Shown here piece after piece: positions 8,611 through 56,345 of a stretch of DNA of 64,000 nucleotides. The translations under genes were made by a program, and so were the position numbers. This DNA comes from Bacteroides caecimuris (GTDB lineage: Bacteria; Bacteroidota; Bacteroidia; Bacteroidales; Bacteroidaceae): the NCBI RefSeq assembly GCF_001688725.2, contig NZ_CP015401.2:682001-746000 (forward strand), read 5' to 3'. A model generated the notes under the pieces. That model was not told the origin of the DNA and ran no database searches. It worked only from the letters and a program-made list of their open reading frames with translations. Every line of letters begins with the position of its first letter. The stretch's first letter is position 1.

Positions 8611-9435
8611 TCAGAGAATTGCTTTGAGTTGTTCAGCCATTTGAGCCTGCACTTCTTGTGCGGCGGTGCGGGCAGCTTCTGCAAATTTCTCTGTTTTATC
8701 GACGTAGATAATACCACGTGACGAATTAACAATTAATCCGCATGTACTGTTCATACCATATTTGCAAACTTCTTCGAGTGAACCGCCTTGTGCTCCCACA
8801 CCTGGTACGAGAAGGAAATGGTTTGGGACAATCTTGCGGATGTCCTCAAAAGCACGTCCTTGAGTAGCACCTACTACATACATCATGCGGTCATCGCCGG
8901 CCCATTCCTGTGATTTGCGTAATACTTTCTCGAACAGACGTTCGCCGTTTATATCTTCTGTCAATTGGAAGTCATGAGAGCCTTTGTTGGAAGTCAATGC
9001 CAACAGGATCACCCATTTACCTTCGTAAGTAAGGAATGGAGTAACGCTGTCTTCACCCATGTACGGAGCTACTGTTACAGAGTCGATATCCAGTTCTTCA
9101 AAGAATGTGCGGGCATACATTGCAGAAGTATTTCCGATGTCACCACGCTTTGCGTCAGCGATGATGAATTGATCCGGATAGTTATCTTTGATATATTTTA
9201 CTGTCTTTTCAAATGCGATCCATCCTTTTACACCCATGCTTTCATAGAAAGCCAGATTAGGTTTGTAGGCGATACACAAATCTGCTGTCGCGTCAATGAT
9301 TGCTTTGTTGAACGCGAAGATCGGATCTTCTTCTTTCAACAGATGTTCCGGGATTTTCTTGATATCAGTATCAAGTCCTACACAAAGGAATGATTTTTTG
9401 CGCTTTATGTTTTCAAATAATTGTTGCTTATCCAT
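8611..9435 (-). CDS. pyrF: Orotidine 5'-phosphate decarboxylase
   Basis: The last step of UMP synthesis, decarboxylating OMP. At 274 residues it belongs to the longer type 2 OMP decarboxylases. The catalytic [13 protein letters not shown] motif, the N-terminal FLCVGLDTD segment and the phosphate-binding region VVGATQG / [10 protein letters not shown] are all present. It lies 96 bp downstream of prfA, with tandem 7-bp repeats in the gap. Confidence 0.95.
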
Positions 9436-9436
9436 C

Positions 9437-9527
9437 TTGTTATTTACTATTTTGCAATTTACTATTTACTATTTTAAGAAACCGTTCTCAACTCTCAACT
9501 CTCAACTCTCAATTCTCAACTCTCCAC
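9437..9527. repeat. Heptanucleotide arrays between prfA and pyrF
   Basis: Two arrays are adjacent. At about 9442-9475 the plus-strand unit is TTTACTA (three copies, one interrupted). At 9486-9527 there are six units: TCTCAAC three times, TCTCAAT, TCTCAAC, TCTCCAC. On the coding (minus) strand the second unit reads GTTGAGA, most copies of which contain TGA. The array ends 4 bp from the prfA stop codon. Confidence 0.75.
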
Positions 9528-9531
9528 TTCT

Positions 9532-10644
9532 CTAAAGTTCGCTTTCTTTCAGGCGTTCTGCATTTTCCGCTACGATCAGATGGTCGATACAATCCTGGAT
9601 ATCTCCGTCCATGAAGGCTGCCAGATTATAAATTGTATAGTTGATGCGATGGTCGGTGATACGTCCCTGAGGATAATTGTAAGTCCGTATTTTTGCCGAA
9701 CGGTCTCCGGTAGATACCATTGTCTTACGTTTAGAGGCAATGTCATCGATATATTTCTGATGTTCTTTGTCGTAGATAAACGTACGGAGACGTGCCAAGG
9801 CGCGCTCTTTGTTTTTCGGCTGGTCGCGTGTCTCGGTACATTCGATAAGGATTTCTTCAGCAATGCCTGTGTTCGGGTTCTTCCAGATATAGCGTAGACG
9901 TACTCCGGATTCTACCTTGTTTACATTCTGTCCGCCGGCACCGCCACTTCGGAAAGTGTCCCATTTGATTTCTCCTTCGTTGATGACTACATCGAATTCT
10001 TCTGCTTCAGGAAGCACAGCCACTGATGCGGCTGAAGTGTGAACACGTCCTTGTGTTTCCGTAGCAGGAACACGCTGTACGCGGTGTACTCCCGATTCGT
10101 ATTTTAAAATTCCGTATACATTATCGCCTGTCACACTACAAACAATTTCTTTGAATCCGCCGGCTGTTCCTTCGTTTGCATTGGAGACTTCCATTTTCCA
10201 ACCTTTGGTTTCACAGAATTTGGCATACATACGGAAGAGGTCACCGGCAAAGATAGCTGCTTCGTCGCCTCCTGCACCTCCGCGGATTTCGAGAATAGCG
10301 TTCTTGCTGTCTTGCGGGTCGGCAGGAACAAGCATCAGTTTGATTTCTTCTTCCAACGCCGGGAGTCGCTCTTGGCTATTGTCCATTTCTTCTTTCGCCA
10401 TTTCGCGCATTTCAGCATCCGATTCATTGGCAAGGATATTTTTAGCTTCTTCAATATTACCCAGTAATTGGACATATTCTTTCCTTGCTTTCATCAAGTC
10501 GTCTAATTCCTTATATTCTTTAGTCAACTTGACATAACGTTTCTGGTCGGCAATCACTGCCGGGTCTGTGATAAGGGTAGATATTTCTTCAAAACGGGCT
10601 ACGAGTCCGTCTAATTTTTCTAGTATGGTACTATTGTCTGCCAT
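9532..10644 (-). CDS. prfA: Peptide chain release factor 1
   Basis: A 370-residue class I release factor that terminates at UAA and UAG. The anticodon-mimic segment PATETQGR has a PxT tripeptide as in RF1, and the hydrolysis motif GGQ is in RSGGAGGQNVNKVESG. There is no programmed frameshift, as expected for RF1 rather than RF2. It starts 3 bp after purM and is probably translationally coupled to it. Confidence 0.96.
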   Translation of the reverse strand: MADNSTILEKLDGLVARFEEISTLITDPAVIADQKRYVKLTKEYKELDDLMKARKEYVQLLGNIEEAKNILANESDAEMREMAKEEMDNSQERLPALEEEIKLMLVPADPQDSKNAILEIRGGAGGDEAAIFAGDLFRMYAKFCETKGWKMEVSNANEGTAGGFKEIVCSVTGDNVYGILKYESGVHRVQRVPATETQGRVHTSAASVAVLPEAEEFDVVINEGEIKWDTFRSGGAGGQNVNKVESGVRLRYIWKNPNTGIAEEILIECTETRDQPKNKERALARLRTFIYDKEHQKYIDDIASKRKTMVSTGDRSAKIRTYNYPQGRITDHRINYTIYNLAAFMDGDIQDCIDHLIVAENAERLKESEL

Positions 10645-43644: not shown

Positions 43645-44745
<1,101 letters not shown>

Positions 44746-44797
44746 CAAAAATGTTTTTATATTCGCGCATTAAATTCACATTAAATATTGAAAAAAG

Positions 44798-45241
44798 ATG
44801 GGAAAGAGTACATTTTTACAGGACTTTAAGGCGTTTGCGATGAAAGGCAACGTCATCGATATGGCTGTCGGTGTAGTTATTGGTGGTGCATTTGGCAAAA
44901 TCGTATCATCATTGGTGGCTAATGTTATTATGCCTCCGATTGGTTTACTGGTTGGTGGTGTGAACTTTACAGATTTGAAGTGGGTAATGAAAGCGGCGGA
45001 AGTGGGAGCCGACGGTAAGGAGATAGCTCCGGCGGTTTCTTTGGATTACGGTCAGTTTCTACAGGCTACGTTCGACTTTCTGATTATTGCTTTTTCTATA
45101 TTTTTATTTATACGTTTGATAACGAAGTTGACAACAAAGAAAAAAGAGGAAGTTGCAGCTACGCCGCCTGCTCCTCCGGCACCTACCAAGGAGGAAGTGC
45201 TGTTGACGGAGATCCGCGACTTGCTGAAAGAGAAAAAGTAA
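44798..45241 (+). CDS. mscL: Large-conductance mechanosensitive channel
   Basis: A 147-residue channel that opens on membrane tension. N-terminal amphipathic helix and first TM ([35 protein letters not shown]), periplasmic loop, second TM ([19 protein letters not shown]) and a cytoplasmic tail with a [11 protein letters not shown] linker and EIRDLLKEK. Convergent to the Hsp70 operon with a 125-bp gap that holds no visible gene. Confidence 0.95.
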
Positions 45242-45366
45242 TGGATCCAGACCCGATGACTCGGATTCTAAAATATAAGAAGCTTGGAGTTGTCGGGTCT
45301 GAAACATGGTTGCAAGGCAAAAATTGGTGCATACCAAGTAGGGACTTATGCGTGAAAAAGGGTGGG

Positions 45367-46422
45367 TCAACTATAATTGCTGCACTTTTTATTGCATGCG
45401 TCACTGTCGCTGATTTGGATATTGTGATAATGGCAATAACCGTTGCTATAATGGTTACAGTTCGCACAACATTCCTTAGATGAACGCTTGCTGCTTTCTC
45501 CGATGATATAAAGTATGAAGTATCCTATCAGTACAATAATGAGTAGTACGACAAAGTGTGCCAGAATCAATATCGTGGATAAAGAGCCCAACAAATAGAC
45601 GGCCACGCAAAGAAAAGCCCTTGTCCACCCTCCTTTAGGGACCACTCCTTTGAATATTAATACTATTTGAATAATTTGGCATACAATGAATGCAATGGTT
45701 ACAAATGTAACAGCAACCGGGAAAAATATTCCGGTTACAATACCGGCAATAATACCGCCTACCCAAGAGTAGATTCCCCATCGTTTGTCAAAAGAACCGT
45801 AACTGTTGTATTCTACATCTTCCAGTGTGTTGAAGAAACATACGAACTGGTTGAATACCACAAAGCCGAACAACAGAAAATTGATAATCGTCCATAGCCA
45901 ACCTACAGTGTCCGGAATGCAAAACCAAATGGCATTTCCTCCCATCAATATCAAATAGACAAGCTCTGATATAGCGGTTGTCAAAAACAGTAGCCAATTA
46001 ACGGTATGTAAACCATCTTCCAATGGCGTTTCTCCTCTGCTTTTTCTGATGAAGAATAGTGCCACAGAAAGAGCGGCAATTAAATAAACCATCCATTCCG
46101 CATTGCCTGTCGCCAGGTTTAATAAGGGAAAATGGAATTTGGAGTCTGTAGGATTGGAGACCGTGCTGTTTTCCTCCACTCTCTTCAGGTATTGTGCGCT
46201 GACATACGCATAACCGTTGTCATATCCGATTTTAGCCCATCCGTCATTTATTTCATACACATCTATTTTCCCGCCTTTGTCTATTGTTCCTAACACCGGA
46301 GCCTCTTTGTCTGCGTAGCTACGGATATTCAGAAAAGTGTTGGCGGTTACTTCGTACTTTGTTTGTGCCGTGCACCACAGGCAATAACACAACAGAATGA
46401 TTGTCCATACATAAGTTTTCAT
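45367..46422 (-). CDS. SH3-domain membrane protein with Cys-rich C-terminal tail
   Basis: A 351-residue protein: signal peptide (1-20, to CTAQ), a bacterial SH3 domain (about 22-80, TFLNIRSYADKEAPVLGTID), then six or more membrane segments (about 108-310), and a C-terminal tail with nine cysteines (ECCANCNHYSNGYCHYHN, then DACNKKCSNY), which could bind zinc or another metal. Function unknown. It is last in a five-gene operon after the L,D-transpeptidase (12 bp). Its SH3 domain resembles the one in the TonB-type protein of the same operon, which suggests shared cell-wall or protein targeting. Confidence 0.8.
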   Translation of the reverse strand: MKTYVWTIILLCYCLWCTAQTKYEVTANTFLNIRSYADKEAPVLGTIDKGGKIDVYEINDGWAKIGYDNGYAYVSAQYLKRVEENSTVSNPTDSKFHFPLLNLATGNAEWMVYLIAALSVALFFIRKSRGETPLEDGLHTVNWLLFLTTAISELVYLILMGGNAIWFCIPDTVGWLWTIINFLLFGFVVFNQFVCFFNTLEDVEYNSYGSFDKRWGIYSWVGGIIAGIVTGIFFPVAVTFVTIAFIVCQIIQIVLIFKGVVPKGGWTRAFLCVAVYLLGSLSTILILAHFVVLLIIVLIGYFILYIIGESSKRSSKECCANCNHYSNGYCHYHNIQISDSDACNKKCSNYS

Positions 46423-46434
46423 AGGCTTTGGATT

Positions 46435-46971
46435 TTAGTTGTTTATTTCATCTTGTGCGGAAGGGGTTATTACTACGGTCATCGGCACGTTCAGCATGGG
46501 CACCAGTCTTTCCAAATCTTCATTCTTTAAACGGATGCAACCTTCGGTCGCTCTTGTGCCAATGGAAAGAGAATCATGCGTGCCGTGAATGCCTATGCCT
46601 TTATGTCCGGGAGTAGCCAGGCGGATGAAGAAGGGACCGTATGCCCCTTTTATTTCTCCTTTTCCATCGTGGAAGTCGTGTGTCCATTTCTGTGAATTTT
46701 GAATGTCGCAAATGGAAAAGACTCCTTCGGGTGTTTTCATGTCTCCCGGTTTTTGTTTGTTTCCATAGTTTAATCCACAAGCGATATGGGCGGCAAACAA
46801 TTCCCTTCCTTTATAATCAATCAATCTTAGCTTCATCTCCTGCTTGGATATAAGCAGGAGATTGGCGTTTTGTATGTTCTGCAATGTGTTATCGAAATAA
46901 CACTTATAAGCAAACCATGCTGCTACGGCACCTAATATGAAGCACCCTAATAATTTCGTTGTTTTTCTCAT
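46435..46971 (-). CDS. L,D-transpeptidase (YkuD family)
   Basis: A 178-residue membrane-anchored YkuD protein. Residues ~8-25 form an N-terminal anchor (LLGCFILGAVAAWFAYK). The catalytic part has GIHGTHDSLSIGTRATEGCIRL, with the His and Cys of the family and a Glu in place of the more common His before GC, as in some ErfK-type members. It would cross-link peptidoglycan or attach proteins to it. It begins 1 bp after the TonB-SH3 gene and is in the same operon. Confidence 0.88.
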   Translation of the reverse strand: MRKTTKLLGCFILGAVAAWFAYKCYFDNTLQNIQNANLLLISKQEMKLRLIDYKGRELFAAHIACGLNYGNKQKPGDMKTPEGVFSICDIQNSQKWTHDFHDGKGEIKGAYGPFFIRLATPGHKGIGIHGTHDSLSIGTRATEGCIRLKNEDLERLVPMLNVPMTVVITPSAQDEINN

Positions 46972-49284
46972 CTAAGTAAGTTTGAAAGTAATAGGCAGGG
47001 TGTATTTCACACGTATAGCTTTCCCGCCTGTTTTTCCGGGTGTCCATTTGGGCATATTTGTAACTACACGTATGGCTTCTTTGTCCAAGTATGGATCGGC
47101 ACCTCTTACTACTTTTACATCCGTGATACTACCGTCTTTGTTAACTACAAATTGCACGATCACACGCCCTTGAGTTCCATTTTCCTGTGCGATAGCCGGA
47201 TATTTGATATTTCTACTCAAATATTGCATTACTCCTGCCATTCCACCATGAGGGAATTCCGGCATCTGTTCGGCAGCATCATATATGTGGTCGTCAGAAA
47301 GATTTGTGTTTTCTTCTTCTTTTTTCTTTTCTTTGATGTTTATGGATTTAGTGTATAGTTTGGCTCCATCCATCCAGATTTCATAGTGGTATGTTCCCGG
47401 TAGATATGATTTTCCTCCGCTGCTTCCCCATCCGGTCGTTTCAAAAGTGCCTTCTTTTTCCGATAAGGTAATCTTTTGTTCAAAGGTATACCCTGCCGGT
47501 GATACTTTGCCTTTGGCAACCGTACCGTTCGGGCTTATGATTTTAACTTTTAATGTAACCGTTTCCGGAGTGGCTGATTGTCTTCTGTAAGAAACTTTAC
47601 CGATTAAATATTGCATGTCGGAATAAAGCTGCTGACCATATTCACTTGAGATGTCTCCATTGTCATCCATGTTGGCGAAAACAGTGGAAAGCACCGTCAA
47701 CTTGTTGGAAGAAACAGGTTGTGTCTCTTTCACGGGTTCTTTCTTTGTCTTTGGCGGAGTGCCGGATTCTTGATTCGAATAAGTTACTTTATACTTATTA
47801 TTCCATTTGTTGTAAGTGATGGACTTGATGTCACCTTTGACTGGTGCGTCTTCCGTATAGCGGAACACGGGTGTCTCATCCTCTTCAAAGGAATACAAAG
47901 CGAGTCTCCTGTTTCCGGTTTGATTGTCCTTCAATATGAATGCAAATTCGGTGAAGTTGTCATAACCATCGTTCAAACGAGGATACAAGACACTGTTCGG
48001 TTTTATTTCTTTGGGCTTAGCGTATAGTTGCCAAGCTGTACTTCCTGTCTTTATACCATTGTTCTTTAAATAATTTAATATAGCCAGTCTGCATTTGGCT
48101 GTGGATACGGCATCTTTGGCATCTTCATTTCCCCAGACACCATTCAGTAAATGAAATTCTTCTGAGTTCAACAAATAGTCAGAAGCGACATAACCTTTTT
48201 TCCCGTCTGCCTTGACATGAGCCCATCCGTTTTCATTGGAATAGGTAATCAGTTCCGAACCGTATGGGATGGTGGTTATCCGGTTGTATTCTACATCTGC
48301 TATGGCGGAAGAACGTAAAAAAAGATTGGTAGCGTATACATAGCTCCGCGGGGCGTTTTTGTCCCGTTTGTAGTCTTTATACCAGAATTGATAACCGGCC
48401 CAAAATATTCCGATGAGGAATAGGAACCATAAGCAACCGTGCGAGTTTTTCTCTTTCTTTCGTTCTTTTCCTTTGGTTCTAGGTTCTTCCTTTTCTCTTT
48501 TGTTTCTTTCTTCTTCCTCTTTTCTCCTGTCTTCTTCTCTTCTTTTGTTTTCTCCTTCTTCTTTTATTTTCTTGATAAATGAATTGTAAGTTTCTATCCA
48601 TTTATCAAGGATTCCTTTGTTGGCAAGTGTCCTTTGGAAAAGATCCATCTTTCCATTGCTGAAGTATTTGTCGGACAATGCTGCGAATTTCTGTACATCG
48701 GCAGCTAGTTGCGCCTCTTTACCACTGATTTGATTGGCAAAGGTAATCAGTCTTTTAATTTCAGCAGAAGGAACACTTTTTTCTGCGTTTATCATATTGA
48801 ATAACACTATGAGGAAGTCGTTTGCCACAGAATCGTAGGCCCAGATGTTGCCGGTCCACAGTTTGGACGTGGCATTGTCCCATGCTATGGTGTCCATTTC
48901 TACGATGGTTTTTCCGTTGTCTTTGGGTTGAGGACGCGGTTTTTCTTTTTCTGGCGATGACAACAGGTCTGCCGCCAGCTTCTCTTTGATGGCTACCGAT
49001 TTGAAATCGGGATTTCCGAATAGCGTTTCGCTCAATGTCAGAAAAGAGTTAAGTGCGGCGGACAGATCCGGCTTGATTCCGGCTATTCCTAAGGCAAACT
49101 CACGTAGTTGCACGATACGCTCGTTCATCTCTTTCTTTTTGACCGGACTGCTGAAAGCCATTTGTTCCAATTCGGTGAAATAGCTTTCTTGTTCATTGTA
49201 ATGGGGATCGGAGATGCCTTTGCGCACCTCCAATCTTTTGCGTTCCCATTCTTTTACTTTGTTTTCAAATACAGGAGTAACCAT
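46972..49284 (-). CDS. Trans-envelope protein with cytoplasmic domain, SH3 and TonB C-terminal domain
   Basis: A 770-residue protein with no signal peptide. Residues 1-280 are cytoplasmic and helical, ending in a Lys/Arg/Glu-rich stretch (about 240-280). One membrane helix follows (about 284-302, CLWFLFLIGIFWAGYQF), then periplasmic parts: an SH3 domain (about 315-372, NLFLRSSAIADVEY), a beta-rich region, and a C-terminal TonB domain (about 672-770, NIKYPAIAQENGTQGRVIVQ). So the TonB-like end faces the outer membrane while ~280 residues face the chaperone side. Starts 7 bp after the Hsp70 gene. Confidence 0.85.
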   Translation of the reverse strand: MVTPVFENKVKEWERKRLEVRKGISDPHYNEQESYFTELEQMAFSSPVKKKEMNERIVQLREFALGIAGIKPDLSAALNSFLTLSETLFGNPDFKSVAIKEKLAADLLSSPEKEKPRPQPKDNGKTIVEMDTIAWDNATSKLWTGNIWAYDSVANDFLIVLFNMINAEKSVPSAEIKRLITFANQISGKEAQLAADVQKFAALSDKYFSNGKMDLFQRTLANKGILDKWIETYNSFIKKIKEEGENKRREEDRRKEEEERNKREKEEPRTKGKERKKEKNSHGCLWFLFLIGIFWAGYQFWYKDYKRDKNAPRSYVYATNLFLRSSAIADVEYNRITTIPYGSELITYSNENGWAHVKADGKKGYVASDYLLNSEEFHLLNGVWGNEDAKDAVSTAKCRLAILNYLKNNGIKTGSTAWQLYAKPKEIKPNSVLYPRLNDGYDNFTEFAFILKDNQTGNRRLALYSFEEDETPVFRYTEDAPVKGDIKSITYNKWNNKYKVTYSNQESGTPPKTKKEPVKETQPVSSNKLTVLSTVFANMDDNGDISSEYGQQLYSDMQYLIGKVSYRRQSATPETVTLKVKIISPNGTVAKGKVSPAGYTFEQKITLSEKEGTFETTGWGSSGGKSYLPGTYHYEIWMDGAKLYTKSINIKEKKKEEENTNLSDDHIYDAAEQMPEFPHGGMAGVMQYLSRNIKYPAIAQENGTQGRVIVQFVVNKDGSITDVKVVRGADPYLDKEAIRVVTNMPKWTPGKTGGKAIRVKYTLPITFKLT

Positions 49285-49291
49285 TTCTTAT

Positions 49292-50764
49292 TTATCGGTT
49301 TAGTGATACACCTTTGGTGTTGATAACAAAATCAGCTGTTTTGCCTTCTATTTCACAATGTACCTTGATGATGCCATCTTTTCCTCTGTTCACGACATAC
49401 TTTAAAGGTGTTCCTTTAGGAACGGGATATCCCCATGTCACATCGCCATCTTGTAGTAGTATGGACATGGGTACTTCGCAAAGACTTTTATTGACACGGT
49501 TCTCGTAGAGAGCTACTCTTACGGATGTTTGTCCATCGTTCAAAGTAGAAAATTCATCGAAGGTTTTCTCTACACACAGATTGTCGCTCATCAGAATCAA
49601 GTTGCATACCATTTCTTTTCCGTTGACATAGGCTGCCACACCATAAGAGGCCGAGCCTTTGTCGTTGCCCAATTGTATGCCGACTTCGGTGTATCCTTTT
49701 TCTTCTTGTGCCGCATACAAAGCTGCTCCTTTGGCCACGGCGAGGTCGGGCTCAAATATACGGGGAGTGATTCCGAATTTCTTTTCAATAAATGCCTTTA
49801 CCATGGGCATGCGTGAGGAACCGCCTACAAGTAACACATCGTCCAGTTTAGGATTGCCCGCCATTTCCATGGTGGTATCGATAAGCTGGTCGGTCATCTT
49901 CATCAGTTCGATGGTGAGTTCCTCAAATTCGCTTCGGGTGATTTCTGTGTTGTGTATTCCCTTGTAGTTGTAGCGAAGGGTTGTTTTTTCCCGGCTGGGA
50001 GTGGACAGGATTTTCTTAGCCTCTTCTGCGCCTATGATCAAGGAGCCGTAGTTGGCCATATCGTGTTCTTTCAACTCTTTGCATGTAGTGTTGAAGTTTT
50101 CTTTTTGCAGGACATAGTCGACTATTTGCTCGTCCCAGTCCACACCGCCCAATTGGTGATTTCCGTTGGTGGCTAAAGTGTCCATCACTCCATTTTGTAT
50201 TTTCATGATGCTGACGTCAAACGTACCACCGCCCAAATCATATACCAGGATTGTGCGGTTCTGCCTGTTCTTGATACCGAAGGACAAGGCTGCCGCTGTA
50301 GGTTCGTTGATTAAGGAGATGACTTCCAATCCGGCACGTTTGCCGGCTTCCATGGTACGTGTCCGTTCCGCGTTTCCGAAGTAGGCCGGTACGGTGATTA
50401 CTACTTTATGTATCGGGTCTTTTCCTTCTTCGTCTTGCCGTTTTTGATTGGCGTCTCTCACTAGCTTTTTAAGGATTTCGGCGGAAACGTCTATAGGATT
50501 GATATCGATGTTTCCTATTCTCCGTTTGTAATTATCGTTAGACATCTCTCGTTTGATGAAGGAAACCGTGCGTTCCGGATCGTTTGCCATATTGGATTTG
50601 GCGGCTGTTCCCACGTATGGAGAGCCGTCTTCGTCATAAGCCACTACAGAAGGAGTGGTCAGTTGTCCTTCTTCGTTGGTGACTACCGTTACCGAGTCTT
50701 CTTCATCGATGATTGCAATACAAGAGTTGGTGGTTCCCAAGTCTATTCCGTAAAATTCTTCCAT
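49292..50764 (-). CDS. Short Hsp70 family protein (no lid domain)
   Basis: A 490-residue DnaK-like ATPase against about 640 in DnaK. The nucleotide-binding domain is complete: GIDLGTTNSCIAI (phosphate 1), VYDLGGGTFDVSIM (phosphate 2), LLVGGSSRMPMV (adenosine motif) and INEPTAAALSFG. Residues ~385-490 match only the beta-sandwich part of the substrate domain; the helical lid is absent. It starts 13 bp after the GrpE-like gene. The function is inferred as a dedicated, client-specific chaperone of this operon, not general folding. Confidence 0.88.
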   Translation of the reverse strand: MEEFYGIDLGTTNSCIAIIDEEDSVTVVTNEEGQLTTPSVVAYDEDGSPYVGTAAKSNMANDPERTVSFIKREMSNDNYKRRIGNIDINPIDVSAEILKKLVRDANQKRQDEEGKDPIHKVVITVPAYFGNAERTRTMEAGKRAGLEVISLINEPTAAALSFGIKNRQNRTILVYDLGGGTFDVSIMKIQNGVMDTLATNGNHQLGGVDWDEQIVDYVLQKENFNTTCKELKEHDMANYGSLIIGAEEAKKILSTPSREKTTLRYNYKGIHNTEITRSEFEELTIELMKMTDQLIDTTMEMAGNPKLDDVLLVGGSSRMPMVKAFIEKKFGITPRIFEPDLAVAKGAALYAAQEEKGYTEVGIQLGNDKGSASYGVAAYVNGKEMVCNLILMSDNLCVEKTFDEFSTLNDGQTSVRVALYENRVNKSLCEVPMSILLQDGDVTWGYPVPKGTPLKYVVNRGKDGIIKVHCEIEGKTADFVINTKGVSLNR

Positions 50765-50777
50765 GTTGTTGTATTTT

Positions 50778-51740
50778 TTATTGTTTTTTATCCATGTATT
50801 TGTAGCATTCCACTTGCTCGCGGCGGAATATCATGCGGTATTCTTTCAACGGATGTGCTTCTCCATTGGCTTTGGCTCTTAAAATGTAGGGTAACGTCCA
50901 AATATAACCGGGGTTTATTGTCCGACGGATCTTTTTGTCGAGCGTGATGTCATCGGTAAGGTAATCGAATGATTGCTGGGTGTGCGGGTCGAAGCGTGTA
51001 TCCTCTTCATCGTGTCGGAACACCTCTACGGAGAAGTCTCTTAAGATGAAGTCTATACTATCTATCAATTGTTCAAACTGCTTTAAGAGATAGGGGGCTG
51101 AAGTTTCCGTATCTGTCGGATTCTCTTCTACTACTTTGCGCATCATATCGCCCAAGTGGATGAATTGTTTTAAGAAAGGAGCGGTAGCCTTCAAATATGA
51201 GTCTTCTTGGAATCCTTGTAAGTCGGCTTCCTTGCGCATCAGTTTGTCTTCTACCTTATCCAGTATGCGCGTCAGTTCGTGGTTCTCGTGTTCGATCTTG
51301 CCTGATAAGGTTTCCAGAATTTGTGTAAGGTTGCTTTGCAACTCATTTTTCAGTTCGTTCAAATCAAGAGGTGTGGTAGTGGAAGGAGTGACTGTCTTTT
51401 TCTCTTCTTGCAGCTCTTTTTCTCCTTCGGCAATGTTTTGCCGGATCTCTTTTAGTTTGGCAGACAGTTCCTGATATTCTCTGTCCAAAGCCTCCTTTTC
51501 CTTTTCCTGTTTCTCCAGTTCGGCGATGGTGTCGGTCAACTTCTTGTGCGTTTCGGCCAGCTGTCTTTCTTCTTCCTCTTCTTCACCGCATTTGGGGAGT
51601 GTGATGTTCTGTTCGGACAACCATTCTGCTGTCCAGCATCCTTCTTCTTCTAAATTTGTTTGTAAAGATTTGAGGAGGCTAATCTTCTCTTTGTCAGACA
51701 TTTTGGAAACTTCTTTCTTTCCACTGATTAAAAATCCCAT
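50778..51740 (-). CDS. GrpE-like coiled-coil protein, candidate nucleotide exchange factor
   Basis: A 320-residue protein from the ATG at 51740 (MGFLISGKKEVSKM); a TTG three codons earlier is less likely. Residues ~35-175 are charged coiled coil. The C-terminal third resembles GrpE: FLKQFIHLGDMMRKVVEE, then DTRFDPHTQQSFDYL and INPGYIWTLPYILRAKA, the last two aligning with the FDP and GY regions of the GrpE beta-domain. It sits directly upstream of a short Hsp70, supporting an exchange-factor role. This is a reading by eye and needs a profile test. Confidence 0.62.
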   Translation of the reverse strand: MGFLISGKKEVSKMSDKEKISLLKSLQTNLEEEGCWTAEWLSEQNITLPKCGEEEEEERQLAETHKKLTDTIAELEKQEKEKEALDREYQELSAKLKEIRQNIAEGEKELQEEKKTVTPSTTTPLDLNELKNELQSNLTQILETLSGKIEHENHELTRILDKVEDKLMRKEADLQGFQEDSYLKATAPFLKQFIHLGDMMRKVVEENPTDTETSAPYLLKQFEQLIDSIDFILRDFSVEVFRHDEEDTRFDPHTQQSFDYLTDDITLDKKIRRTINPGYIWTLPYILRAKANGEAHPLKEYRMIFRREQVECYKYMDKKQ

Positions 51741-51815
51741 AGTATTCAATCAGTCAATCGATTCCCCTGAGTTGACATTTTAGTAAATGATTAAGTGTGG
51801 GCATATAAAGAAAGC

Positions 51816-52145
51816 GCGGGAATCTGTACCTGTCACTCGTCCCGCAACTCAAGGCCTTCGCATTGCCCAATTCTGTTGAACGAGCAACGCAGAAGCCCAC
51901 GCCGATATGTATACTCCTAGCACACTTCTCTTTCTTCACGCGAAGAGAGAAAAGTGGTAAGAAGAAAATAACATATCCCACGGACATCTATCGTTGCTTT
52001 GTTTAGACAGAATTTATATAAAACCGCGAAGTTTTGAGTTGCCTGAACAAAACGCCAAATAAACGTCTTTTCTTTAATATGTCCGTTTCCCTCCCTATCC
52101 ACCTTGTCGAGCAAGGTTTTCGGCGTAGGAAACGCGGCAAAATTA
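51816..52145 (-). promoter_or_regulatory. Promoter and structured leader of the Hsp70 operon
   Basis: A TAATTTTG -7 box lies at 52138-52145 on the minus strand, about 390 bp before the first start codon. The leader contains three hairpins: ACCTTG/CAAGGT (52101-52106 with 52112-52117), a 14-bp arm pair GGCTTCTGCGTTGC / GCAATGCGAAGGCC with G-T wobbles valid only on the minus strand (51884-51897 with 51853-51866), and GCGGGA/TCCCGC (51816-51821 with 51840-51845). Short reading frames here (such as 51754-52243) have no recognisable product. I recall similar sequence elsewhere in Bacteroides, which suggests a repeated regulatory RNA. The remaining ~400 bp towards guaA hold the guaA promoter and AT-rich sequence only. 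Confidence 0.55.
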
Positions 52146-52504
52146 ATGTTTAATTTTGAATTAATGAAATATTTGATTGTTTTTGTAGGGTAACCGCCAC
52201 GGCTTTTTTCATTTAAGAAATATGTCTTATAGGATTTGGACAAGCGTATCTCTAAAAGCAGGTTTATATATCGGTACAGAAATGAATAAGATACTCTCTT
52301 TCATATTATATGAGAGAGTATTTTACTCCAATCCGTTTTTTCAGATTAATCCGGATATTGGTAAACCATTTATGCCGACTGCATAAGAAAGTGGTGTAGA
52401 ATCTTTCAACTTCATGTGTGACGGTCTAACCTACTTATCAGCCAAAAAAAGATTTAATAGTAGATTTTTATGCCTATTCTTCTATCTCTTTGCTGACTTT
52501 TTCC

Positions 52505-52512
52505 TACTTTTG
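52505..52512 (+). promoter_or_regulatory. -7 promoter box for guaA
   Basis: TACTTTTG matches TAnnTTTG, 32 bp before the guaA ATG. A -33 TTTG at the normal distance is not clear. Confidence 0.55.
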
Positions 52513-52544
52513 CACATCATTTATTCAAAATCCAACCAATTGAT

Positions 52545-54068
52545 ATGCAGGAAAAAATAATAATTCTTGATTTCGGTTCGCAGACAACACAGCTTATAGG
52601 CCGTCGTGTACGTGAATTGGATACGTATTGTGAAATTGTTCCTTATAACAAATTTCCTAAAGAAGACCCGACTATTAAAGGAGTCATTCTCTCCGGAAGT
52701 CCTTTTTCGGTTTACGATAAAGATGCTTTCAAAGTAGATTTGAGTGAAATTCGTGGTAAATATCCGATATTGGGTATTTGTTATGGTGCACAGTTTATGT
52801 CATACACCAATGGCGGAAAAGTGGAACCGGCCGGCACACGTGAATACGGACGTGCACACTTGGCGTCTTTTTGCAAAGACAATGTGCTGTTTAAAGGTGT
52901 GCGCGACTGTTCGCAGGTATGGATGAGCCACGGCGATACGATTACTGCTATCCCGGATAATTTCAAGAAAATAGCTTCGACGGATAAGGTCGAGATTGCC
53001 GCCTATCAGATAGAAGGCGAGCAAGTATGGGGTGTACAGTTCCATCCGGAAGTGTTCCATAGTGAAGACGGAACTCAAATCTTGAAGAACTTTGTGGTAG
53101 ATGTTTGCGGTTGCAAGCAAGACTGGTCGCCGGCTTCTTTTATTGAGAGCACAGTTGCCGAACTGAAAGCCCAGTTGGGTGGTGATAAAGTCGTTCTTGG
53201 TTTAAGCGGTGGAGTTGATTCTTCCGTTGCTGCGGTGTTGTTGAACAAAGCTATTGGCAAAAACTTGACTTGTATCTTTGTAGATCACGGTATGCTACGC
53301 AAGAATGAGTTCAAGAATGTGATGGCTGATTATGAATGTCTCGGCTTGAACGTAATCGGCGTAGATGCCAGTGAGAAGTTCTTCACTGAATTGGCTGGCG
53401 TAACCGAACCGGAACGTAAGCGTAAGATTATAGGTAAGGGCTTTATTGATGTGTTCGATGTAGAAGCTCATAAGATCAAAGATGTGAAATGGCTGGCACA
53501 GGGTACCATTTATCCGGATTGCATCGAGTCATTGTCTATTACGGGCACAGTGATAAAGAGCCATCATAATGTAGGCGGTCTTCCTGAAAAGATGAACCTG
53601 AAGTTATGTGAACCACTTCGTTTGTTGTTTAAGGATGAGGTGCGTCGGGTAGGTCGTGAGTTGGGCATGCCCGAACATCTGATTACTCGTCATCCGTTCC
53701 CGGGACCCGGGTTGGCCGTGCGTATTCTGGGTGATATTACTCCGGAGAAAGTGCGCATCCTGCAAGATGCTGATGATATTTTCATTCAAGGATTGCGTGA
53801 CTGGGGATTGTATGATAAAGTATGGCAGGCAGGAGTTATCTTGTTGCCGGTACAGTCTGTCGGTGTAATGGGAGATGAGCGTACATACGAAAGAGCCGTT
53901 GCTTTGCGTGCTGTGACATCTACGGATGCTATGACAGCTGACTGGGCGCATTTGCCTTATGAATTTATGGGTAAGGTGTCGAATGATATTATTAATAAGG
54001 TGAAAGGTGTAAACCGTGTAACCTATGATATAAGTTCCAAGCCGCCTGCAACCATAGAGTGGGAATAA
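52545..54068 (+). CDS. guaA: GMP synthase (glutamine-hydrolysing)
   Basis: A 507-residue enzyme making GMP from XMP. N-terminal class I amidotransferase (GICYGAQFM with the catalytic Cys; [11 protein letters not shown] with His and Glu), ATP-pyrophosphatase domain ([16 protein letters not shown], about 215) and C-terminal dimerisation domain ending [17 protein letters not shown]. Monocistronic, with its own promoter and a terminator downstream. Confidence 0.97.
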
Positions 54069-54924: not shown

Positions 54925-56345
54925 ATGAAAATAACTTTAATCAGACAAGACAGCGGGAGTGGAAAAGAAGCTCTAAGTATCTGCGAAGCAGGTACATTAT
55001 TCAACAAAATGAAAACGGAGACAAAATCGAGACACATTACGGCTTTGCGAAACCTGATACCGATGCTGGAAGGTACGTACAGCCGGTACGAACATATAGA
55101 CAAACTGCCATACATCTATTCTGCCGTAGCATATACCCGCACTAAAGAAGGCGAACGAAAAATGAAACATTATAACGGACTGGTACAGTTGGAAGTGAAA
55201 CGGCTGGCAGGCCCGTCCGAAATGGAATATGTGAAACGGCAGGCGGCGCTTTTGCCCCAGACTTTTGCCGCATTCTGTGGTTCCAGTGGCCGTAGCGTGA
55301 AGATATGGGTGCGTTTTGCCTTGCCGGACGACAGAGGACTGCCCAAAAAAGAAGCGGAAGCGGAATTATTTCATGCCCATGCCTACTGGCTGGCAGTAAA
55401 GTGCTACCAGCCGATGCTTCCTTACGATATTAATCTGCAAGCACCAGTGCTGACGCAGAAATGCCGCATGACATTGGACGAATCTCCTTATTATAATCCC
55501 GAAGCGGTTCCTTTCTGTCTGGAACAACCGCTCACGATGCCCGGTGAGGAAACTTTCCGGCAGCGTAAGCAGGGCGAGAAGAATCTCTTGTCGCGCCTGC
55601 AACCGGGATATGAGTCTGCGAAAACTTTCACAAAAATTTATGAAGCAGCGTTGAACAGGGCATTTCAGGAAATGGAAGACTGGAAGCGTGGAGATGATTT
55701 GCAACCTTTGCTTGTACACCTTGCCGAGCATTGTTTCAAAGCGGGCATCCCCGAAGAAGAAGCAGTGCGGCAGACGCTCATTCATTACTATCGGGAAGAA
55801 GATGAGCAAATCATACGCTCGACGATTCATAATCTTTATCAGGAATGTAAGGGTTTTGGCAAGAAAAACAGCATCGGAAGGGAGCAGCAGACGGCTTTTC
55901 TGCTGGAAGAATTTATGAACCGTCGTTACGAATTCCGCTATAACACCGTATTGGATGATCTGGAATACCGCCAGCGTGATTCCATCCACTTTTACTTTAA
56001 GCCCGTGGACAAACGTGTGCGCAACAGTGTCTCTATCTGTGCCTTGAAAGAAGGTATCAATGCCTGGGATCGTGATGTAGACCGTTTCCTGAATTCAGAA
56101 TTTGTTCCTTTGTACAATCCTGTAGAAGAATATCTTTATGATGTCGGCTGTTGGGACGGGAAAGACCGTATCCGTGCATTGGCAGGATTGGTTCCATGCA
56201 GATTCTGAATTATTTGCAGACGAAGACACGAGACAAGTTGGCTATCAATAAAGTAGCTGTGTTTGGCCGTGCGCTTCAGAAGCTGAATATTCCCTGCCGG
56301 AAGTCCGTTAAGGGGACACTTTATCATTTACTGAAAATAGAATGA
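54925..56345 (+). pseudogene. VirE-family protein with internal deletion and frameshift
   Basis: The first 427 codons (54925-56208) are intact: a VirE N-terminal/BT4734-like domain (MKITLIRQDSGSGKEAL, CGSSGRSVKIWVRFALPD, QKCRMTLDESPYYNPEAVPF), a middle primase-associated part, and the beginning of the VirE ATPase domain (YDVGCWDGKDRIRALAGLVP), where the frame stops. From about 56200 in another frame the C-terminal DUF3874-like end appears (ILNYLQTKTRDKLAINKVAV; FGRALQKLNIPC) to 56345. The P-loop ATPase core, several hundred residues in intact members, is missing. The usual accessory partner genes are not seen. The truncated 427-residue product could still be made. Confidence 0.82.

Follow-up and report, generated by a model that had tools for sequence, protein, structure and literature searches.

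What might an Hsp70 chaperone be doing in an operon with a probable envelope-spanning protein, a GrpE-like partner of its own, and apparently no J-protein? We looked into this question for five genes in a 64,000-nucleotide stretch of the Bacteroides caecimuris genome (contig NZ_CP015401.2, positions 682,001 to 746,000; the whole stretch is referred to here as the window, and coordinates count from its first letter). The genes, called A to E from the upstream end, all lie on the minus strand with intergenic gaps of 13, 7, 0, and 12 bp, calculated from the coordinates and in line with a first-pass annotation of the window. Canonical DnaK, GrpE, and DnaJ are encoded elsewhere in the same genome, and A and B are therefore an extra chaperone set. 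We tentatively propose, with somewhat less than even confidence, that the operon is an accessory envelope sensor/effector module in which protein C serves as a chassis and a private, J-independent Hsp70/GrpE-like pair is an interchangeable input. What carries this proposal is the gene content, the co-conservation of A, B, and C, the co-divergence of A and B, the loss of the J-coupling residue, the differing heads found on C, and the accessory position of the set.

An Hsp70 without the J-coupling arginine

Gene B (49292..50764, minus strand) encodes a lidless Hsp70 of 490 amino acids (Pfam PF00012, 320 bits) that is 100% identical to its counterpart in B. acidifaciens DSM 15896. We compared it, in the residue numbering of Escherichia coli DnaK, across 15 Hsp70 loci, 13 with the tail of C and two without it (L052 and L053); Hsp70s of about 840 amino acids and that of L054 were excluded, and the 15 include identical or near-identical copies (the window, L011, and L012; L048 to L051; L046 and L047). 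A broader set of 115 relatives consisted of the best 120 of 7995 after removal of 5 shorter than 470 amino acids. The catalytic residues D8, T11, K70, P143, E171, T199, and D201 were kept in 15/15 loci and 115/115 relatives. Arg167, the DnaK residue engaged by the J-domain (PMC7289447 and PMC8215388; these and all other sources given by PMC number, except where their main text or text is named, are cited from excerpts), was present in 18/18 housekeeping DnaKs, in 0/15 loci, where Ser, Ala, or Asp stands instead (Ser150 in B by alignment to DnaK, codon 50315..50317, minus strand), and in 1/115 relatives, with Lys in three more. Asp148, Asp326, and Gln378 were likewise replaced in 15/15 loci. 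The DnaK linker VLLLD was altered to QLGND in the window and to a VVVN type in L046 and L048, with some positions still hydrophobic, and its Asp393 was kept in 7/15 loci and 115/115 relatives.

On the substrate side, the alignment to DnaK bore out the first-pass description of an Hsp70 with a beta substrate domain and no lid. B aligns up to DnaK residue 490, and the pocket residue V436 was kept in 14/15 loci; the alpha-helical lid is absent, the window protein stopping at the beta domain, other versions carrying short extensions only, and the relatives of at least 470 amino acids reaching 513 at most (among the best 120 of 7995). The same annotation had called the ATPase domain complete, which holds for all catalytic residues checked but not for the loop around residues 76 to 101, which is missing from B, or for the GrpE-signature positions 290 to 293, which are gaps in 15/15 loci. 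Of the two cleft salt bridges, the one formed by K55 and E267 was kept in 15/15 loci.

No HPD motif occurs in A to E. Moreover, we translated the window and 24 related loci in six frames and searched the resulting 5434 stretches with the genome's own three J-domains, which doubled as the positive control; no J-domain was found at E ≤ 1. Thus, there is apparently no J-protein helper for B nearby, as the first-pass annotation had noted for the operon, and the loss of the J-coupling arginine strengthens that point. Taken together, the residues suggest that B is a working ATPase free of J-protein control and without the standard GrpE-signature loop, a pattern that fits a private partner without proving one.

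The changed linker and the changes at allosteric positions 148, 167, 326, and 378 in 15/15 loci could also mark a degenerate Hsp70 that serves as a noncycling structural scaffold or nucleotide sensor. A precedent is CnuD, and the Hsp70-like domains of CoCoNuT systems are proposed to bind ATP/ADP and to hydrolyze very poorly (PMC11090510); GrpE is absent from the main text of that paper. We regard this explanation as highly doubtful, however: the tested catalytic positions are invariant in 115/115 relatives, unlike those of a decaying ATPase, and partner A has been maintained.

A diverged GrpE-like partner

Gene A (50778..51749, minus strand) encodes 323 amino acids when counted from a TTG codon, with a more likely start at ATG 51740 or 51701, since relatives begin with MGF or MSD. 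It comprises a coiled coil and a divergent GrpE-like domain (residues 132 to 283; 50901..51356, minus strand) that matched Pfam GrpE PF01025 at 29.6 bits, the curated cutoff being 25.8. The cutoff was passed by 5/7 versions of A (window, 29.6; L044, 34.4; L048, 27.1; L094, 26.7; and L013, 26.3 bits), and 16/24 members of the A-family alignment matched GrpE at E ≤ 0.01; the resemblance is thus above background, as the first-pass annotation had held for the C terminus of A. We considered a chance match caused by the coiled coil and lean against it. The last 196 residues alone scored 32.8 bits, so that the coiled coil is not needed for the match, and the last 134 residues, which lack the long helix, matched GrpE as the sole family at E ≤ 1 (19.5 bits, under the cutoff; E = 8e-4).

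Several results weigh against the GrpE assignment. For A of L045 and A of L046, there was no PF01025 match over the cutoff (the A proteins of L046 and L047 are homologous to A of L048, with E values of 5e-47 and 2e-48, respectively). Against 30 canonical Bacteroidota GrpEs, hhalign assigned a probability of 4 to 6% and E values of 0.006 to 0.0095 (reversed control, 0.31). A hidden Markov model built from the same 30 GrpEs found 0/37 A proteins at default filters and, with filters off, placed 26/37 under an E value of 10 (best, 0.013) compared with 3/37 reversed sequences. The GrpE-signature loop is absent from the Hsp70 in all 15 loci, which leaves the exchange activity of A not assured. A PDB profile search with A returned zero matches. 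The GrpE fold consists of paired long helices, a four-helix bundle, and a beta domain. The AlphaFold2 model of A showed long and short helices, one at about residues 56 to 118, at a mean pLDDT of 69 and a pTM of 0.28; its C-terminal part was poorly modeled, residues 240 to 323 averaging a pLDDT below 60. We conclude, with a confidence that stays modest because the direct comparison with canonical Bacteroidota GrpEs was weak, that A is a highly diverged GrpE homologue.

Protein C as a probable envelope anchor

Gene C (46972..49284, minus strand) encodes 770 amino acids arranged as a cytoplasmic head, a transmembrane (TM) segment, SH3, two regions that we named C_mid and C_beta, and TonB_C. The head (residues 1 to 283; 48436..49284, minus strand) had no Pfam match over the cutoff and ends in a K/E/R-rich link to the TM segment. 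Beyond the probable TM segment (48379..48435, minus strand) come SH3_3 (48172..48327), C_mid (47755..48156), which is conserved after SH3 in C relatives by sequence comparison, C_beta (47269..47739), a multicopy domain found on either side of the TM segment in relatives, and TonB_C (46978..47211; 82.6 bits), all on the minus strand, with SH3_3 and TonB_C found by Pfam. The first-pass division into about 280 cytoplasmic residues, a TM helix, SH3, and TonB_C was therefore confirmed for the domains, but the TM segment was weak on a plain hydropathy scan, the best 19-residue mean being 1.43 at residue 283, below the threshold of 1.6. The TM call comes from inspection and from a hydrophobic segment common to 12 aligned tails (the L048 row begins inside it).

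The TonB energy transducer carries in its N-terminal TM helix a His that couples it to ExbB/D (H20 in E. coli TonB). The C segment, CLWFLFLIGIFWAGYQFW, contains zero His, unlike that helix. The best PDB match of the C SH3 domain was its counterpart in a cell wall hydrolase, and the PDB sequence search gave zero matches for C beyond SH3, C_mid included. C probably crosses the cell envelope.

The next gene, D (46435..46971, minus strand), encodes a YkuD L,D-transpeptidase of 178 amino acids, with the motif HGT...EGCIR intact in 10/10 D genes inspected. E (45367..46422, minus strand) encodes 351 amino acids with SH3_3, several TM segments, and a Cys-rich tail; for both genes, Pfam and inspection agreed with the earlier description. 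From the identities of these domains, the operon may be predicted to act on the cell wall.

Genes A, B, and C stay together

We surveyed 158 Bacteroides genomes, of which 19 carried the C tail, and inspected the neighborhoods of all 19 (G127 and G175 via the matching contigs L011 and L012). Two were dropped, G172 because both its copies are broken or truncated and G213 because its match is partial, leaving 12 genomes with the Hsp70 and 5 without it. Wherever the Hsp70 lay beside the tail, A, the Hsp70, and C were adjacent and in this order (12/12 genomes, in six versions: G000, G127, G175, G132, G197, G240, G260, G155, G251, G196, G239, and G595), so that the neighborhood of the Hsp70 does not vary freely. 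A Parabacteroides metagenome-assembled genome (L013) has A-B-C-E. Searched from the Hsp70 side, 149 genomes gave 13 best matches, 11 beside the tail and 2 (G137 and G123) not. More widely, the tail occurred in 4/349 genomes of a family-wide draw (Bacteroides included) and in 12/393 of an order-wide draw, the window's own genome being counted in each, and A occurred in 1/119 order-wide genomes, namely the window's own.

The identity matrices of A and B across seven loci were strongly correlated (r = 0.923, reached by 8/5040 label permutations), and neither correlated with that of the tail (A-C, r = 0.114, 1500/5040 permutations; B-C, r = 0.058, 1720/5040). Since A and B correlate with each other and neither follows the tail, A-B looks, as far as these distances go, like a unit joined to various tails.

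The earlier view of all five genes as a conserved set stood for A, B, and C, which remain adjacent and ordered, but not for D and E, which come and go, nor for loci at which the tail and YkuD occur without the Hsp70. Some of these findings also count against the proposed module. Of the 12 genomes with A-B-C, 7 carry D and 9 carry E, and no E gene was found at L044, L045, or L094; D and E are optional and missing from some loci. At one locus, L091, the tail is accompanied by neither Hsp70 nor YkuD. The Hsp70s of L052 (G137) and L053 (G123), which are 45 to 46% identical to B and also lack Arg167, do not have the tail alongside, and the loss of J coupling is therefore not tied to the tail. The genes next to the Hsp70 in these two loci code for large proteins.

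The two copies of the tail protein in G172 (L074 and L077), both broken or truncated, are a sign of turnover.

One tail, different heads

Five Bacteroides tail loci have an adjacent YkuD gene (L072, L073, L075, L076, and L093), and the Hsp70 was absent from all of them in six frames. Outside Bacteroides, YkuD adjoins the tail in L092 and L154 and lies one gene off in L153. Because the tail and transpeptidase are found without a nearby Hsp70, the chaperone is an exchangeable part, and the first-pass idea that it is the driving engine of a trans-envelope machine did not hold.

What replaces it varies. Among the best 120 of 200 C relatives, the TM-SH3-C_mid portion is shared (it formed part of the query) and the heads differ. 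We chose 40 of the 120 for Pfam, and at E ≤ 0.01 their domains included Sel1 (12), Pkinase (5), zinc ribbon (2), B-box (2), and MORN (1). Cys-rich, zinc-ribbon- or B-box-like N termini were seen in 4/5 of the Bacteroides loci without the Hsp70, and the head in L076 matched none of these; such heads were below the Pfam cutoffs in L093 (the only one of those four scanned) and in L091. Two loci join a kinase set to the chaperone pair: in L044, a serine/threonine kinase (STK) with a zinc-ribbon-like C terminus (under the Pfam cutoff), two VWA genes, PP2C, and MORN precede A-B-C, and L045 has an STK homologue (E = 7e-179), one VWA gene (E = 1e-106), PP2C, and MORN. VWA, PP2C, and STK genes were absent from the window operon by Pfam.

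These arrangements also bear on the possibility that A and B are a dedicated folding or assembly chaperone, a client-specific foldase that helps C (and D and E) to fold or insert. Its operon is shared with the presumed client, and private DnaK/GrpE pairs exist, such as MxDnaK2 with its upstream GrpE (PMC11019930). Nevertheless, we consider a foldase distinctly improbable, given that YkuD and related tails bearing other heads occur in the absence of the Hsp70, that the lid and J coupling normally used in folding cycles have been lost, and that the linker is altered.

Under the sensor/effector proposal, C would be anchored in the inner membrane and touch the cell wall or outer membrane with a periplasmic arm of SH3, C_mid, and TonB_C, its far-side domains acting as a sensor of, or a grip on, either one. 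The cytoplasmic input would be the private Hsp70/GrpE-like pair, released from J-protein control. B may work as a clamp, driven by ATP, that grips the C head or the K/E/R-rich linker between head and TM segment (both candidates for the Hsp70 groove), holding the head in one nucleotide state while A times its release. The first-pass annotation had the head as a possible client of the Hsp70 or substitute for the J-protein. In relatives, the tail would be set by a kinase, Sel1, MORN, or zinc-ribbon-like head, through phosphorylation or contacts of other kinds, and because the same chassis takes these other heads, the chaperone pair would be a regulatory switch and not a foldase. A dedicated L,D-transpeptidase often accompanies C, and wall remodeling is a plausible output because the transpeptidase motif is kept in ten D genes; the absence of the transpeptidase from several loci weighs on this output. 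We infer the contact between the Hsp70 and C, the exchange activity of A, the direction of signaling, and the peptidoglycan output.

Accessory position and resemblance to conflict systems

The gene set is accessory. We searched 26 genomes, the window's own included, for mscL and found it in 19. In G130, G132, and G133, guaA directly follows mscL, and in G124 about 1.3 kb separates the two genes. The operon set stands between them in the window and in G127 (in the window as a segment with approximate edges 45242..52500, strand not applicable, by comparison with G130, G132, and G133). In the remaining 13 genomes with mscL, guaA was outside the stretch examined, which in G119 ends at a contig edge. 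L048 to L051 have the set at a different site, before frr and rsgA (Pfam on L048 only), and the gene ahead of it in L049 to L051 was recognized by eye as pyrH.

A plasmid or phage origin was considered and rejected: the tail had zero matches in plasmid, phage, and viral-contig collections, and phage Hsp70s are distant, matching B at 33 to 34% identity (10 of 25 records). One of these records, an "Acinetobacter phage," was inspected and has a full-length dnaK behind grpE. Beyond guaA, an open reading frame (ORF) at 54925 to 56208 resembles by eye a VirE/primase-type mobile-element gene.

Among described systems, the loci resemble the predicted GAP1-N2 and TerY-P modular systems. The GAP1-N2 systems are GTPase-centric predicted conflict systems with exchangeable themes (Kaur et al. 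2020, PMC7159879); Hsp70 and GrpE occur in about 14% of their neighborhoods, mainly in actinobacteria and firmicutes, a protein kinase, often with a zinc ribbon, PP2C, and vWA, occurs in about 10%, and in some components SH3 domains lie past a TM segment (PMC7159879). The present loci share this logic of exchangeable themes (Hsp70 and GrpE; kinase, PP2C, and VWA) and the SH3 beyond a TM segment. They differ in being from Bacteroidales and in carrying TonB_C and an L,D-transpeptidase ("TonB" is absent from the text of PMC7159879). Unlike in GAP1-N2 systems, in which a DnaJ fusion occurs, a J-domain was searched for here and not found, and the Hsp70-GrpE and kinase/PP2C/VWA themes, which do not overlap there, co-occur in L044 and L045. 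GTPase and FNIII parts were not noticed in our loci, though they were not searched for and many neighbor ORFs were unscanned. The TerY-P triad consists of VWA, PP2C, and STK-zinc ribbon (PMC11090510), and the loci that resemble it are L044, where STK, PP2C, and two VWA genes precede A-B-C, and L045, which has the same kinds of genes with one VWA; the window operon has none of these genes.

On this basis the operon could be an anti-phage or anti-competitor conflict system, with the envelope arm or the Hsp70 as the sensor of attack and E and/or the transpeptidase as effectors damaging or sealing the envelope. The patchy tail (19/158 Bacteroides genomes), the different heads on one tail, the TerY-P-like partners in L044 and L045, and component themes similar to those of GAP1-N2 systems point that way. 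We nonetheless judge it unlikely. The Pfam matches of the window operon include zero known effectors, no GAP1-N2-type GTPase was noticed (no search aimed at GTPases was made), and E was not found in three of the loci, including the two with the TerY-P-like partners. Membership in a known defense family was set aside as well: PADLOC gave unconvincing results; A matched only models of the coiled-coil type, and the single match to the Hsp70 was weak (22.8 bits).

Comparison with other Hsp70 machines

The loss of J coupling is the most surprising feature of these loci. Hsp70s are described as J-protein dependent, and the specialized HscA and HscC keep dedicated J-proteins, are thought not to use GrpE, and lack the GrpE-signature loop (290 to 295 in DnaK) (PMC8215388). 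B is similar to both in lacking that loop and in its presumed narrow clientele, and to HscC in lacking loop 76 to 101, which is missing too from many nonproteobacterial DnaKs (PMC8215388). Unlike HscA and HscC, it is accompanied by a GrpE-like protein and lacks the J-coupling Arg and the lid, and no J-protein was found in its neighborhood. The B family thus appears to be a mirror image of HscA and HscC, with the GrpE-like partner kept and J coupling lost. MxDnaK2 of Myxococcus xanthus, a DnaK paralogue whose gene forms a two-gene operon with that of an upstream GrpE to which it binds (PMC11019930), is like B in having a partner of its own encoded upstream and unlike it in that the excerpt mentions no envelope protein.

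With the small, soluble A-B pair, the question of how ATP hydrolysis is triggered in the absence of a J-protein becomes testable. A single chassis carrying Hsp70-linked heads as well as kinase, Sel1, and zinc-ribbon-like ones would rank Hsp70 among the signaling inputs of gut Bacteroides. A bolder, and in our estimate rather unlikely, extension is that bacterial Hsp70 machines have a fourth functional class, to which this operon would belong: J-free, with a private coevolved GrpE-like factor alone, the Hsp70 would serve as a regulatory ATP switch for a trans-envelope anchor and, as a module, would be exchangeable for protein-kinase inputs. The first-pass annotation knew of no described system with this gene set; our searches of open-licence papers did not find the exact A-to-E set either, although related GAP1-N2 themes have been published (PMC7159879).

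Neighboring genes and related loci

An Rfam scan of 44000 to 53000 found zero RNA elements. In L072, a Mob_Pre plasmid recombination gene (8782-10182) lies directly upstream of the pair of YkuD and a C with a Cys-rich head, and the C/YkuD loci of L075 and L093, whose heads are also Cys-rich, adjoin BACON_2 and CarboxypepD_reg proteins, with Laminin_G or fn3 domains also present in neighbor proteins of L093. Longer Hsp70s of about 830 to 850 amino acids occur in other multigene neighborhoods of several Bacteroides (L055, L056, L057, L058, and L086), with C_beta-type domains nearby in L056, L058, and L086. Finally, in other Bacteroidales families (L084, L085, L155, and L156), an SH3 protein of about 300 to 330 amino acids lies beside an oppositely oriented gene of 365 to 405 amino acids whose N terminus is similar by eye (KIKFLGIF-like), which suggests a second conserved pair; C_mid was also matched in the SH3 proteins of L084, L155, and L156.

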